Source of the DNA: Clostridiales bacterium
Lineage (GTDB): Bacteria > Bacillota > Clostridia > Christensenellales > DTU072
Assembly (NCBI GenBank): GCA_012520515.1
Contig: JAAYOD010000032.1
Location: 73,967-116,344 of the forward strand
Direction: 5' to 3'
DNA length: 42,378 nt
The notes under the pieces were generated by a model, which was given only the letters and a program-made list of their open reading frames with translations, was not told where the DNA came from and ran no database searches. Shown one piece after another: positions 9,745 through 14,346 of the stretch. Every line of letters starts with the position of its first letter. Position 1 is the stretch's first letter. The translations under genes and the position numbers were made by a program.

Positions 9745-9773
9745 GATGAAAATAATAAGAAAAGGGGTTGTTT

Positions 9774-10223
9774 ATGGAAAAGGAGCAAGTAAAAGAGCAA
9801 GAATCGGCAATCAAAAAGACCAAGAAGAAAGGTAGAAAGTTTGTAAAAGACTTCATGTCCTTTATTCAAAGGGGAAGCGTTATTGACCTAGCAGTAGGTA
9901 TTGTAGTGGGTGGAGCTTTTCAAAAGATTGTGTCCAGCTTGGTAAACGATATAATAATGCCGTTACTTAGCCTTATAGGCAAACAAAATCTCTCCGACGC
10001 TAAAGTTATACTTAGAGAAGCCGTTATGGATGGAGATGTTGTGGTAAAAGCTGAAGTTGCTCTTTTGTGGGGCTCATTTGTGCAAGCAATAATTGACTTT
10101 TTAATAATCGCATTTGCTATTTTTGTGGCAATTAGGGCAATGGGCGTATTTAGAGCAAAGTTAGACAAAAGAGTAAAAAAGGTTGTGGAAAAAGTAAAAG
10201 AAAATATAAAAGATGATGAATAG
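9774..10223 (+). CDS. mscL: Large-conductance mechanosensitive channel
   Basis: A 149-residue pore-forming protein that opens under membrane tension to release solutes during osmotic downshock. The pore helix RGSVIDLAVGIVVGGAFQKIVSSLVNDIIMP and the second membrane helix (SFVQAIIDFLIIAFAIFVAI) are clear. A lysine/glutamate-rich C-terminal bundle follows. About 20 extra, highly charged residues precede the family's usual start. AAGGGG lies 6 bases before the ATG at 9774, so that ATG is preferred over the TTG two codons earlier. It is transcribed alone from its own promoter and ends at a bidirectional hairpin. Confidence 0.95.
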   Translation: MEKEQVKEQESAIKKTKKKGRKFVKDFMSFIQRGSVIDLAVGIVVGGAFQKIVSSLVNDIIMPLLSLIGKQNLSDAKVILREAVMDGDVVVKAEVALLWGSFVQAIIDFLIIAFAIFVAIRAMGVFRAKLDKRVKKVVEKVKENIKDDE

Positions 10224-11423: not shown

Positions 11424-11624
11424 ATGGCAAAACAAATGGCAACTAAAAATCTACAAAATATTTCCGATATTTTAGGAGCTGAAAAACTTAATTATGAAAA
11501 AGTTTGTTACTATTCAGAAATTGCGAAAGACCCTGCGCTTATCAATTTACTATCTGAGTTAAAAGAGGCAAGCAAAGCTCACTATGGAGCAGTTTACAAC
11601 TATTTAAAATCACATCAACAATAA
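11424..11624 (+). CDS. Small helical protein paired with a CotF-like coat protein
   Basis: A 66-residue, mostly helical protein without a signal peptide. Its layout (ISDILGAEKLNYEKVCYYSEIAKDPALINLLSELKEASKAHYG) resembles one helix pair of the ferritin-like CotF fold, so it is probably a short relative of the gene that follows 11 bases later. A TTGGAGG ribosome binding site precedes the ATG. Such paired small genes are frequent in clostridial spore formers. A role in the spore coat is inferred from the partner, not from any motif in this protein. Confidence 0.65.
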   Translation: MAKQMATKNLQNISDILGAEKLNYEKVCYYSEIAKDPALINLLSELKEASKAHYGAVYNYLKSHQQ

Positions 11625-11635
11625 GGAGAATGATT

Positions 11636-11911
11636 ATGAGAACGCAAACGCAAACAAAACCGCAACTTAATGATATTCAAATAATACAAGATGTGCTATC
11701 ATCTGAAAAATCATTGGCAAAAATGTATATGAACGCCATTTTGGAAAGTAGCTGTCCCAAAATGAGAAAGGTGCTTGGCGATGTGCATATGGAAATTGCT
11801 GATAAGCAATTTAAGTGCTTTGAATATATGTCGCAAAACAATCTTTATCCTATAGAATATGCCGACTCTCAAAAGCTAACTGACGCTATCAACAAATATG
11901 CGGAATTATAA
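11636..11911 (+). CDS. CotF-like spore coat protein
   Basis: A 91-residue protein similar to the CotF family of small spore coat proteins. The recognisable features are SEKSLAKMYMNAILESSCPKMRK, a central helix ending in QFKCFEYMSQNNLYP, and the tail PIEYADSQKLTDAINKY. The AAGGAG at the end of the upstream gene sits 7 bases before the ATG at 11636, which I prefer to the ATG two codons earlier that almost touches the site. It forms a two-gene operon with the preceding 66-residue protein and ends at a strong terminator. I could not identify a SigE or SigK promoter with confidence. Confidence 0.75.
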   Translation: MRTQTQTKPQLNDIQIIQDVLSSEKSLAKMYMNAILESSCPKMRKVLGDVHMEIADKQFKCFEYMSQNNLYPIEYADSQKLTDAINKYAEL

Positions 11912-12062: not shown

Positions 12063-13640
12063 TTGAGAAAGAACTTATTTAGTAAATTTAAAGAATCATT
12101 GTTTGCAGTATTGCCAATTACGGTAATAGTAGTTATCATTAGTCTAACAATGTTAGATGTGTCAGGCTATACCCTAGCGTCTTTTTTGATAGGCGCTGCC
12201 ATAATCGTAGTTGGAATGGGACTTTTTACTTTGGGCGTAGATATGGCAATAATGCCCATGGGCGAGAGCATGAGCGAATCGCTAGTTAAGTCAAAAAAGC
12301 CAGTATTTATTGTACTAATGTTTTTTCTTATGGGTTTTTTAATTACTTTGGCAGAACCTGATTTGCAAATTCTTGCTCAGCAAATAGAGACCATTCCTAA
12401 TACTATTTTAATATTATCAGTAGGTGTAGGCGTCGGGCTTGCTGTAGTGGTATTTGTGTTAAAGGTGCTTCTAAAAGTCAAGTTATCCTATATTTTGCTA
12501 GCTCTTTATGGCATTGTTTTTATACTTTCATTTTTGGTCAACAAAAATTTTGTGGCAATAGCATATGAAGCGGGCGGGGTAACAACAGGACCTATGTGCG
12601 TGCCTTTTGTGCTTGCGCTTGGAGCAGGGCTTTCCCATATGAAGTCAGGAAGTGACGACCAAGACCAAGATGGATTTGGTATGGTTGCTCTTACGCTAAT
12701 TGGGCCTATTATAGCTGTGCTTATACTTGGTATGTTTTATAAGCCAACTAGTAGCGTAGCGCCTCAAGCCGATGTTTTAATTACTAGCGTAAAAGATATG
12801 TTGCTTGGCTTTGTAAAAGCAATTCCTGGCTCTATGAAAGATGTGGGAATTTCCCTTGTGCCCATTGTATTTTTGTTTATAATATTTCAATTTGCGTCAT
12901 TGCGGCTTTCTAATTCTAGCATTATAAAGATTATCATTGGCGTAATTTATAACTTTGTAGGACTAACGCTATTCTTTGTTGGCGTCAATGTTGGCTTTTT
13001 GCCAATGGGCAAGCTAATAGGGGCGGCTCTTGCGTTAAAATCTTATAATTGGATATTAATAATACTAGGCGCGGTGCTAGGTTTTGTTGTCGTTTTGGCA
13101 GAGCCTTCAGTGCCTGTTTTAAATAAACAAGTAGAGAGAATAACAGGCGGCGCTATTACCAAAAGAGCAATGCTGCTTTGTATGTGCATAGGCATTGCAG
13201 TAGCTGTTGCGCTTTCTATGGTTAGAGTGCTTACGGGAATTAGTATCTTGTACTTTATAATTCCTGGCTATGCCATTGCGCTGTTGTTAACATTTTTTGT
13301 GCCGCCTATATTTACATCTATTGCTTTTGACTCAGGCGCAGTTGCGTCAGGGCCTATGACAGCAGTATTTATGCTGCCGCTTGCCATGGGGGCAACTACG
13401 GCGCTTGGCGGCAACCTATATACAGATGCGTTTGGTCTTGTTGGTATGGTGGCAATGGCGCCTACCATTACTATACAAATACTTGGATTAATTTATAAAC
13501 TTAAGACAAAATCAGCTCCTGTGGGCAGCATGGATATGGAAGAAGAGCCTATTGACATTGCTTTTGACAGTGAATCCACACAAGAAAGTATAGGCGACAA
13601 TGAATTAGAGCAAACTTCTCAAGATATAGTTGAAAGTTAA
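12063..13640 (+). CDS. DUF1538 family membrane protein, internally duplicated
   Basis: A 525-residue protein with about 12 membrane segments and an acidic cytoplasmic tail (from about residue 490). It consists of two homologous halves (about 1-240 and 241-480). LAEPD (96-100) matches LAEPS (345-349), YEAGGVTTGPM (168-178) matches FDSGAVASGPM (422-432), and DGFGMVALTLIGP (203-215) matches DAFGLVGMVAMAP (455-467). Such pseudo-symmetry with conserved Gly/Pro/acidic loops is characteristic of transporters, and I recognise the family as DUF1538, of unknown substrate. The start is TTG at 12063 after AGGTGG. Two PII-like genes follow in the same operon, as AmtB is followed by GlnK, so its transport activity is probably gated by them. 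Confidence 0.85.
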   Translation: MRKNLFSKFKESLFAVLPITVIVVIISLTMLDVSGYTLASFLIGAAIIVVGMGLFTLGVDMAIMPMGESMSESLVKSKKPVFIVLMFFLMGFLITLAEPDLQILAQQIETIPNTILILSVGVGVGLAVVVFVLKVLLKVKLSYILLALYGIVFILSFLVNKNFVAIAYEAGGVTTGPMCVPFVLALGAGLSHMKSGSDDQDQDGFGMVALTLIGPIIAVLILGMFYKPTSSVAPQADVLITSVKDMLLGFVKAIPGSMKDVGISLVPIVFLFIIFQFASLRLSNSSIIKIIIGVIYNFVGLTLFFVGVNVGFLPMGKLIGAALALKSYNWILIILGAVLGFVVVLAEPSVPVLNKQVERITGGAITKRAMLLCMCIGIAVAVALSMVRVLTGISILYFIIPGYAIALLLTFFVPPIFTSIAFDSGAVASGPMTAVFMLPLAMGATTALGGNLYTDAFGLVGMVAMAPTITIQILGLIYKLKTKSAPVGSMDMEEEPIDIAFDSESTQESIGDNELEQTSQDIVES

Positions 13641-13655
13641 AAAAAGGGGAGAGCT

Positions 13656-14009
13656 ATGCCAGACATTAACAGCATTAAATCAATCAACTTGGCTATTGTT
13701 ATAGTTGACCGCGGAAAAGGTAAGCGCATTACAAAACTTTTTAATAAAATAAATGTGCCCTATCAAGTGAGTGCACTAGGAAAAGGCACTGCGCCTACCG
13801 AAATGCAAGCCTATTTTGGATTTGGAGAGACGGAAAAGGATATAATCTTTGCCCTTATTTCCGATGAAAAAACAAAGACCTTTAACGCTATGCTAACTGA
13901 AGAGTTATGCACCAAAAAACCAAAATCCGGGATAGCGTTTGTTATACCTATCAATAGCGTTTCTGGAAAGCAAGAATTAGAGTATTTCTTAGGTGAGATG
14001 GAGGAATAA
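13656..14009 (+). CDS. PII-like signalling protein (first of two)
   Basis: A 117-residue protein with the ferredoxin-like beta-alpha-beta fold of the PII superfamily. It opens with the strand NLAIVIVDRGKGKRITKLF, has a loop-bearing middle (SALGKGTAPTEMQAYFGFGETEKDII) where PII has its T-loop, and ends with a strand GIAFVIPINSVSG. The canonical GlnB uridylylation tyrosine context is absent. It lies 15 bases after the DUF1538 gene behind GGGGAGAG, and 1 base before a second, divergent PII-like gene. It probably binds a nucleotide or small metabolite and contacts the membrane protein; which ligand cannot be seen. Confidence 0.82.
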   Translation: MPDINSIKSINLAIVIVDRGKGKRITKLFNKINVPYQVSALGKGTAPTEMQAYFGFGETEKDIIFALISDEKTKTFNAMLTEELCTKKPKSGIAFVIPINSVSGKQELEYFLGEMEE

Positions 14010-14010
14010 T

Positions 14011-14346
14011 ATGCAAGATTTTAAGTATTCGCTTATAATAACCATTGTCAATAAAGGTTTTTCCAACGATGTTATGGAAGCTGCCAGAGCTGAGGGAGTA
14101 AGTGGCGGTACTGTGATGAGAGCTAGGGGAACGGCGGAAAAAGAAGTTACCAAGTTTATGGGCTTTACCATAGAGCCAGAAAAAGATATAGTGCTGGTTT
14201 TGGTGGAAAATGAAAAACGCGCCGCCACAATTAAGGCAATTCACGCAAAAGCAGGTCTTGGCACAAAAGGACACGGGTTTACTTTTTCACTGCCCGTAAA
14301 AGATGTCATAGGCGGATTTAGGCTTAATAATAAAGAGCAAGAATAA
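14011..14346 (+). CDS. PII-like signalling protein (second of two)
   Basis: A 111-residue PII-superfamily protein, clearly different in sequence from its upstream neighbour. It shows the helix-turn EAARAEGVSGGTVMRARGT, then FMGFTIEPEKDIVLVLVENEK, and a C-terminal GLGTKGHGFTFSLPVKDVIGG that matches the ligand-proximal end of PII trimers. The start ATG at 14011 follows GGAGG and comes 1 base after the stop of the first PII-like gene; an in-frame upstream ATG at 13993 lies inside that gene and is rejected. Two unequal PII-like subunits in one operon could form heterotrimers or sense two separate signals for the DUF1538 transporter. Confidence 0.85.
   Translation: MQDFKYSLIITIVNKGFSNDVMEAARAEGVSGGTVMRARGTAEKEVTKFMGFTIEPEKDIVLVLVENEKRAATIKAIHAKAGLGTKGHGFTFSLPVKDVIGGFRLNNKEQE

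Follow-up and report, generated by a model that had tools for sequence, protein, structure and literature searches.

The subject of this work is a three-gene module in a stretch of 42,378 nucleotides from a Clostridiales bacterium (GenBank assembly GCA_012520515.1, contig JAAYOD010000032.1, positions 73,967 to 116,344 of the forward strand); the whole stretch is referred to as the window, and coordinates are those of the window unless a locus is named. The module consists of a gene for a DUF1538 membrane protein with two repeats in one chain, resembling a joined UmpA and UmpB (12063..13640, +; 525 amino acids, TTG start), and two genes for PII-fold proteins of unequal type, PII-A (13656..14009, +; 117 amino acids) and PII-B (14011..14346, +; 111 amino acids counted from ATG, with the longest frame starting at a GTG at 13993). 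An earlier, sequence-only reading had described a two-fold repeated membrane protein with motif pairs about 250 residues apart, and two PII-fold genes downstream of it at gaps of 15 bases and 1 base. Both statements were borne out. The motif pairs of the two halves lie at residues 97/346, 169/423 and 205/457 of the translation, with a spacing of 249-254, and two stretches of the protein matched Pfam DUF1538 (PF07556; E-value (E) 2.8e-129, 429.1 bits versus a cut-off of 22.6). The intergenic gaps were confirmed on the open reading frames (ORFs), and PII-B exceeded the cut-off of Pfam P-II (PF00543; 29.7 bits versus 25). For PII-A, Pfam gave no match up to E 1, and the PF00543 cut-off was not reached. 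Its probable kinship to PII rests on similarity to PII-B (26% identity, E 4e-8, in a single BLASTP comparison), on a score of 45.3 bits against a profile of single PII proteins, and on the predicted fold of a fused relative; in the tree described below it belongs to the A group.

The host genome (G000; 1.56 Mb) is 92.7% complete, which qualifies any absence from it. It encodes a second DUF1538 protein 45 kb away from the first, and two PII-like genes come after it in the same module. Only two Pfam P-II matches were obtained in this genome, and they correspond to the second PII genes of both DUF1538 modules. At this completeness, no match was found to an ammonium transporter or to a canonical PII protein. 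One diadenylate cyclase was detected.

To place the module in a wider context, a pool of 181 DUF1538 loci was read with profiles built for this analysis. A first set came from related genomes, of which 36 out of 58 contained DUF1538; a PII profile of this type matched in every one of these 36 and in three of the remaining 22. These three matches were located at a contig end (G031), in a sequence interrupted by an inner stop and scoring 20.6 bits (G043), and in a lone B-type gene (G019). The second set comprised the best 80 of 583 named loci by similarity: 73 had a fused DUF1538 gene with one fused two-PII protein, five combined a fused DUF1538 gene with two PII genes, and two were cut by contig ends. 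Most of them were from Clostridia; Breznakiella (a spirochaete), a Synergistaceae bacterium and two Enterococcus species were also represented. For the third set, DUF1538 was surveyed in the window's phylum (84 of 249 genomes), in that of Breznakiella (11 of 60, ten of them above the cut-off) and in that of the Synergistaceae bacterium (12 of 41). Sixty stretches were taken from this survey, namely 39 from the window's phylum (38 of its 84 genomes with DUF1538), picked among the matches listed to favour split and single forms of DUF1538, ten from spirochaetes and 11 from Synergistota. Finally, four annotated plasmid records were added, out of nine that matched. As the loci were chosen (36 based on relatives, 80 by best similarity, 60 favouring split and single forms), a reading of the architecture proportions as population frequencies was rejected.

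A PII-like gene was present downstream of DUF1538 in 180 of the 181 loci, and in the sole exception (L077) the contig ends there. The two neighbours were encoded on the same strand in all 183 adjacent pairs, with ORFs taken from their first start lying -232 to +157 bases apart. The linkage spans Bacillota, Spirochaetota and Synergistota as well as two plasmids of Alphaproteobacteria. An extra check of 11 genomes, including those with the weakest matches, yielded 11 distinct loci, ten of them with PII; the eleventh held a decayed DUF1538 gene. In this last locus (L258, genome G178) DUF1538 contains several stops and no PII gene occurs in the 3.4 kb of the locus covered, so that both parts have seemingly been lost together. 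Given the 180 of 181 loci and the fact that the host genome's only two P-II matches lie at DUF1538 loci, the linkage seen in the window is beyond chance. Hence the conserved linkage across genomes on which the sequence-only reading depended holds, and, judged by gene neighbourhood, DUF1538-PII is a conserved regulator-transporter system. No report of this link was found in the literature searched, which covers few subscription journals. Among the plasmid-borne modules, those of Peptoclostridium and Paraclostridium (L154, L155) are fused forms, and those of Chelativorans and Methylocystis (L152, L153) combine split DUF1538 genes with one PII gene.

Several architectures were distinguished. The gene order of the window, a fused DUF1538 gene followed by two PII genes, occurred in 31 of the 181 loci including the window itself; in 98 loci the fused DUF1538 gene was accompanied by one fused two-domain PII protein, i.e., A and B are joined in many relatives. 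Five spirochaete loci (L223-L227) encode a three-domain PII protein, whose domains were recognized by hhalign with probabilities of 97.6, 99.4 and 98.4, and two loci (L065, L238) have two fused DUF1538 genes in tandem. Altogether, two or more PII domains adjoined the transporter gene in 136 of 140 fused-DUF1538 loci, and three of the four exceptions (L039, L077, L094) are contig-cut. The profile search of DUF1538 neighbourhoods for one versus two PII-like genes, which had been put forward as a check, thus found two divergent PII domains to be the rule beside fused DUF1538. Separate DUF1538 pairs were accompanied by two PII domains in 16 loci (11 with fused PII, four with two genes, plus L183) and by one PII per pair in 18 (11 of the pool and seven in an extra set). 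Single DUF1538 genes, found in 13 loci, had one PII in 13 of 13. In the Breznakiella genome, a fused module (L097) coexists with a split one that has a single PII (L218). PII number tracks transporter state only in part.

With respect to individual loci, L071 is a cut DUF1538 fragment with two PII genes. In this locus and in L063, L068, L242 and L245, which come from two genera (g2, g3) within the window's family, PII-A adjoins DUF1538, and PII-B follows 297 or 1030 bases on or lies on another contig. Next to the three-domain PII chains (e.g. L223:5716-6894), the second repeat of the DUF1538 protein is enlarged by a long insert; four of these five loci were initially classed 'D3' because the insert splits that repeat.

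The window's DUF1538 protein reached 175.9 of 490 bits with the NCBIfam model of UmpA (NF041627) and 130.6 of 500 bits with that of UmpB (NF041628). As the equivalog cut-offs were not reached, the protein is called UmpAB-like rather than UmpAB. The UmpAB pair of Halomonas zhaodongensis is a Na+(Li+,K+)/H+ antiporter in which two seven-helix proteins work together as a heterodimer (PMC5484666, available parts), and the designation 'uncharacterised transport system' in the sequence-only reading can therefore not be upheld. Repeat 1 of the window protein (residues about 5-225; 12075..12737, +) was delimited by the sub-cut-off match to NF041627 over residues 5-225, and repeat 2 (residues 268-477; 12864..13493, +) by its Pfam stretch. 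Counts of lysine plus arginine (K+R) alternate from loop to loop in fused DUF1538 proteins, with repeat 2 showing the inverse pattern. For split pairs, K+R on the N-terminal side versus the other side was 7.0 versus 1.8 for the first gene and 3.9 versus 9.4 for the second; for single genes the values were 6.6 versus 4.6, based on 14 rows that include one contig-cut fragment (L071). Because of this inverted charge bias the transporter halves are predicted to be antiparallel, with a cytosolic N-terminus of repeat 1 and repeat 2 inverted relative to it, and the single form is predicted to have near-dual topology.

An AlphaFold2 model of the window protein, computed from 65 aligned sequences, had a predicted local distance difference test (pLDDT) value of 90.5 and a predicted template-modelling score (pTM) of 0.89. 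Its helices are broken at the motif AEPD (12351..12362, +) and at GGVTTGP within EAGGVTTGP (12567..12593, +), and likewise at their repeat-2 counterparts AEPS (13098..13109, +) and DSGAVASGP (13329..13355, +). E98 of AEPD, E347 of AEPS and D423 of DSGAVASGP were identical in 65 of 65 sequences, and position 169 was acidic throughout (D in 63, E in two). Based on conservation and model, E98, D/E169, E347 and D423 are read as candidate ion and proton sites. A search by sequence revealed no solved relative of DUF1538 (best E 0.17). A search by fold with Foldseek gave no match at E <= 0.001 (best E 0.014), and template-modelling scores (TM-scores) did not exceed 0.21 among the best 50 of 249 matches listed; going by the model, the fold is possibly novel.

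The protein ends in an acidic tail (residues 485-525; 13515..13637, +) that is predicted to be disordered and, by charge bias, cytosolic. Near the C-terminus of fused DUF1538 proteins an acidic-hydrophobic motif (like DEIIDL) was present in 47 of 130 tails (e.g. L083, L103, L147), compared with a mean of 1.0 and a maximum of five in shuffled tails, the pattern having been chosen after inspection of the tails. The motif is not in the window's own tail, and a looser form was found in 0 of 43 and 0 of 30 genes of the class labelled D1. A role as docking peptide is possible and is considered as a lead only.

The relationship among the PII domains was studied in a tree built from 312 domain sequences and GlnK. 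At fused loci, the 128 first domains (A) and 129 second domains (B) formed two clades with support of 0.96 and 0.72, respectively. A and B rows of split pairs fell among the single PII rows; as deep support was only 0.02-0.46, an independent origin of the doubled PII beside split pairs is not claimed. In all groups the T-loop stretch was about five residues shorter than that of Escherichia coli GlnK (about 17 versus 22). With respect to the canonical sites (Tyr51, Lys90, Arg101, Arg103), K90 was outside the four commonest residues in every group and R101 was present in 1% of B, while in the poorly aligning C-terminal columns R103 matched an R in 25% of B; position 51 was F or L. As judged by sequence, membership among canonical GlnB/GlnK proteins is not given. 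In a model of a fused A-B relative (pLDDT 84) two ferredoxin-like domains were predicted. When this model was used in a fold search, SbtB chains were the PII matches among the 50 listed (TM-score by target 0.53-0.68), and the first ten entries by E-value were two-domain ferredoxin-like or designed proteins, not PII.

The nucleotide bound by GlnK lies between subunits, with positions 38, 39, 87, 88 and 90 coming from one subunit and T29, 64, R101 and R103 from the next (PMC8395244, in part). We used G35 and G89 as markers of the first cleft edge and G27 and T29 as markers of the second. All four were kept in single PII proteins (9/9 rows, and 19/19 in a group in which two loci appear twice and two tandem split-pair loci supply four rows) and in A and B of split pairs (15/15 each). 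Opposite edges were lost at the 130 fused-DUF1538 loci, a set that includes one three-domain chain (L227): the first edge was kept by A in 126 loci and by B in 58, the second by A in 11 and by B in 128. Edge loss was strictly reciprocal in 71 of the 130 loci (70 of 99 with fused PII, one of 31 with separate genes). In a further 45, among them the window and 30 of the 31 separate-gene loci, A had lost one edge and B had both, and in ten loci all edges were kept in both proteins. The window's PII-A has the equivalents of G35 and G89 and carries Y and V in place of G27 and T29; PII-B has all four. In the three-domain chains domain 2 kept the first edge (G35, G37, K58, G87 and G89 in 5/5), domain 3 had G27 and T29 in 5/5 and G35 in 0/5, and domain 1 had neither pair complete. 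Going by these markers, the only complete composite cleft in the reciprocal two-domain and the three-domain designs would be that between the penultimate and the last domain.

A PII-regulated transporter, as assumed in the sequence-only reading, would be the natural interpretation by analogy with GlnK-AmtB and SbtB-SbtA. In these systems PII-like proteins with intersubunit adenyl-nucleotide sites lock the transporter by insertion of their T-loops (PMC8352866, PMC10117731, PMC10710835, each in part). We propose that the three genes form one system in which an UmpAB-type DUF1538 cation/proton antiporter, built of two antiparallel seven-helix halves fused in one chain, would be gated by a dedicated two-domain PII-like regulator, i.e. 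a symmetry-broken PII heteromer that senses an adenyl nucleotide. To this proposal as a whole we assign an even chance of being correct; its substrate, its ligand and the binding events are inferred. In order of falling certainty, its parts are that (i) the PII proteins would exert their effect on the transporter directly and from its cytosolic side, in the manner of GlnK with AmtB and of SbtB with SbtA; (ii) the transporter would exchange Na+ and/or K+ for H+; (iii) A and B would assemble together, A contributing the edge of the nucleotide cleft at the T-loop base and B-loop, and B the opposite edge; and (iv) the ligand would be an adenyl nucleotide (AMP/ADP/ATP, cAMP or cyclic di-AMP (c-di-AMP)) whose binding alters the T-loops. 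The T-loop change would then open or block the antiporter and tie ion and pH homeostasis to the energy or second-messenger state. Broken three-fold symmetry of PII would suit a transporter that is an asymmetric pseudo-dimer and not a trimer. A mixed A/B oligomer gains support from the complementary loss of half-sites and from the three-domain chains. In favour of c-di-AMP as ligand are its control over potassium, its binding to PstA and SbtB (PMC4316997, PMC10117731, both in part) and the cyclase of the host genome; AMP/ADP/ATP or cAMP are equally possible.

Several observations weigh against this proposal. With K90 replaced and R101 nearly always replaced, the canonical ATP site is not conserved. 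PII-B of the window, with all four markers present, possibly forms a site on its own. The edge changes map to few events on the tree, about two for the second edge of A and five for the first edge of B, so that the 71 reciprocal loci are not 71 independent cases. Further, umpAB gave antiport in an E. coli test strain without any PII gene, and PII was not required there (PMC5484666, available parts); the text of that paper nowhere mentions PII or P-II, and no PII gene is named in the umpAB clone. The scores for UmpA and UmpB far below the cut-offs mean that the substrate may differ. Finally, in the fourth exception among the fused-DUF1538 loci (L063, genome G011) the second, B-type PII gene lies apart from the first, on a different contig.

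A more specific and more tentative scheme, which we consider possible though not probable, is that of a PII without three-fold symmetry. It would start from a single DUF1538 protein, perhaps a dual-topology homodimer, with a single PII; the latter would have given rise to two unequal domains and, in spirochaetes, to a covalent three-domain ring with one composite site. The surviving site would be formed by the edge of A or domain 2 against that of B or domain 3. In this way, a single asymmetric PII ring would rest on a single asymmetric antiparallel antiporter, and one nucleotide would decide between open and closed.

Alternative explanations concern the cargo and the division of labour between A and B. 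It is rather doubtful, but worth considering, that DUF1538 proteins of the window's branch carry another cation, an anion or a metabolite under the PII control proposed here. We found a single assayed DUF1538 pair in the literature, the UmpA and UmpB scores are low, and the predicted fold is unlike any solved transporter among the best 50 of 249 matches listed; the invariant acidic residues at the helix breaks, however, suit a cation/proton exchanger, and a machine-learning study (PMC13255231, in part) names DUF1538 among the gene families informative about growth pH. Somewhat less plausibly, only B would sense a nucleotide, and A would be a structural or docking subunit that brings B to the membrane. 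The 45 loci, including the window, in which A lacks an edge and B has both would fit such an arrangement, as would the B motif being the one nearest to single PII proteins. Yet A kept G35 and G89 in 126 of 130 loci, and at least one of the two is missing from B in 72 of 130, which suggests that A is part of a site.

That A and B are ordinary homotrimeric PII proteins which respond to separate ligands and gate one half of the transporter each is improbable. Although two PII domains beside 136 of 140 fused DUF1538 genes and one PII beside each of the 13 single-repeat genes would agree with this assumption, the 18 loci in which two separate halves share one PII and the five loci with three PII domains for two halves do not. 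For 119 of 130 loci, homotrimers of A would have no G27/T29 edge, and halves that are antiparallel, as predicted, would show different faces to the cytosol. The idea of one PII protein per repeat half, raised in the sequence-only reading, is thus not supported. Least credible, and in our view very unlikely indeed, is a role of the PII genes in nitrogen metabolism or transcription, with mere co-transcription with the transporter gene. It is suggested by the label 'P-II family nitrogen regulator' assigned by the Prokaryotic Genome Annotation Pipeline, but would not account for a linkage that extends from Bacillota to Spirochaetota, Synergistota and two alphaproteobacterial plasmids. Moreover, neither an ammonium transporter nor a canonical PII was found in the host genome, and the uridylylation site and the canonical phosphate-binding Lys are not conserved.

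Compared with known systems, the module resembles UmpAB in its Pfam family, in the pairing of two homologous seven-helix parts and in conserved acidic residues, but two separate genes in H. zhaodongensis correspond to one fused gene in the window. It shares with GlnK-AmtB the position of a PII gene beside the gene of a membrane protein under its control; AmtB, however, is a trimeric ammonium channel, and GlnK is a canonical PII protein with a uridylylated Tyr51 and the longer T-loop (22 versus about 17 residues). SbtA-SbtB is similar in that an inverted-repeat transporter is combined with an adjacent-acting PII-like protein (PMC8352866, PMC10117731, in part). There, a symmetric SbtB homotrimer acts on trimeric SbtA, whereas one to three unequal PII domains accompany DUF1538. 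For joint action of two adjacent unequal PII proteins, NifI1/NifI2 provides a precedent: two PII-family proteins encoded by adjacent genes jointly switch off nitrogenase (PMC9765008, available parts). Two unequal PII proteins side by side, both needed for one target, are the common feature; the target described for NifI1/NifI2 is nitrogenase and not a membrane transporter. Two unlike P-II chains, in 12 and six copies, make up PDB entry 9p1x, which we presume to be NifI1/NifI2. Mixed GlnB/GlnK trimers are cited in PMC5448240 (in part). With regard to the transporter, the series known from DUF606, which includes a single gene of low bias, a split pair with opposite biases and a fused protein of antiparallel halves, recurs in DUF1538; the available part of PMC3962082 does not mention a dedicated PII partner of DUF606. 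Control of transporters by PII is known as such, and the unusual feature here is that the PII domains are unequal, have complementary half-sites and in some cases are covalently linked. If the proposal is true, it would provide a PII-transporter pair other than trimer on trimer, show a route from a symmetric to an asymmetric sensor, and assign a candidate function to many genes, those of gut Clostridia among them, that carry the annotation 'DUF1538' or 'P-II family nitrogen regulator'. As the PII proteins are small and soluble, the question is testable.

The surroundings of the modules were also inspected. An Rfam search of 38 sources did not reveal a shared riboswitch ahead of DUF1538; single matches (flavin mononucleotide (FMN), molybdenum cofactor (Moco; twice), T-box, guanidine-I, c-di-GMP-I and tRNA) sit at other genes according to their position. 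Matches to a molybdenum/tungsten riboswitch are near two DUF1538 modules, at other genes (L007:6378-6502, L181:989-1107). In the window, two small genes lie directly upstream of the DUF1538 gene (11424-11911, +), the second of which encodes a Coat F domain protein (PF07875). The gene mscL, which codes for a mechanosensitive channel (PF01741), is located 1.8 kb upstream of the DUF1538 gene (9768-10223, +).

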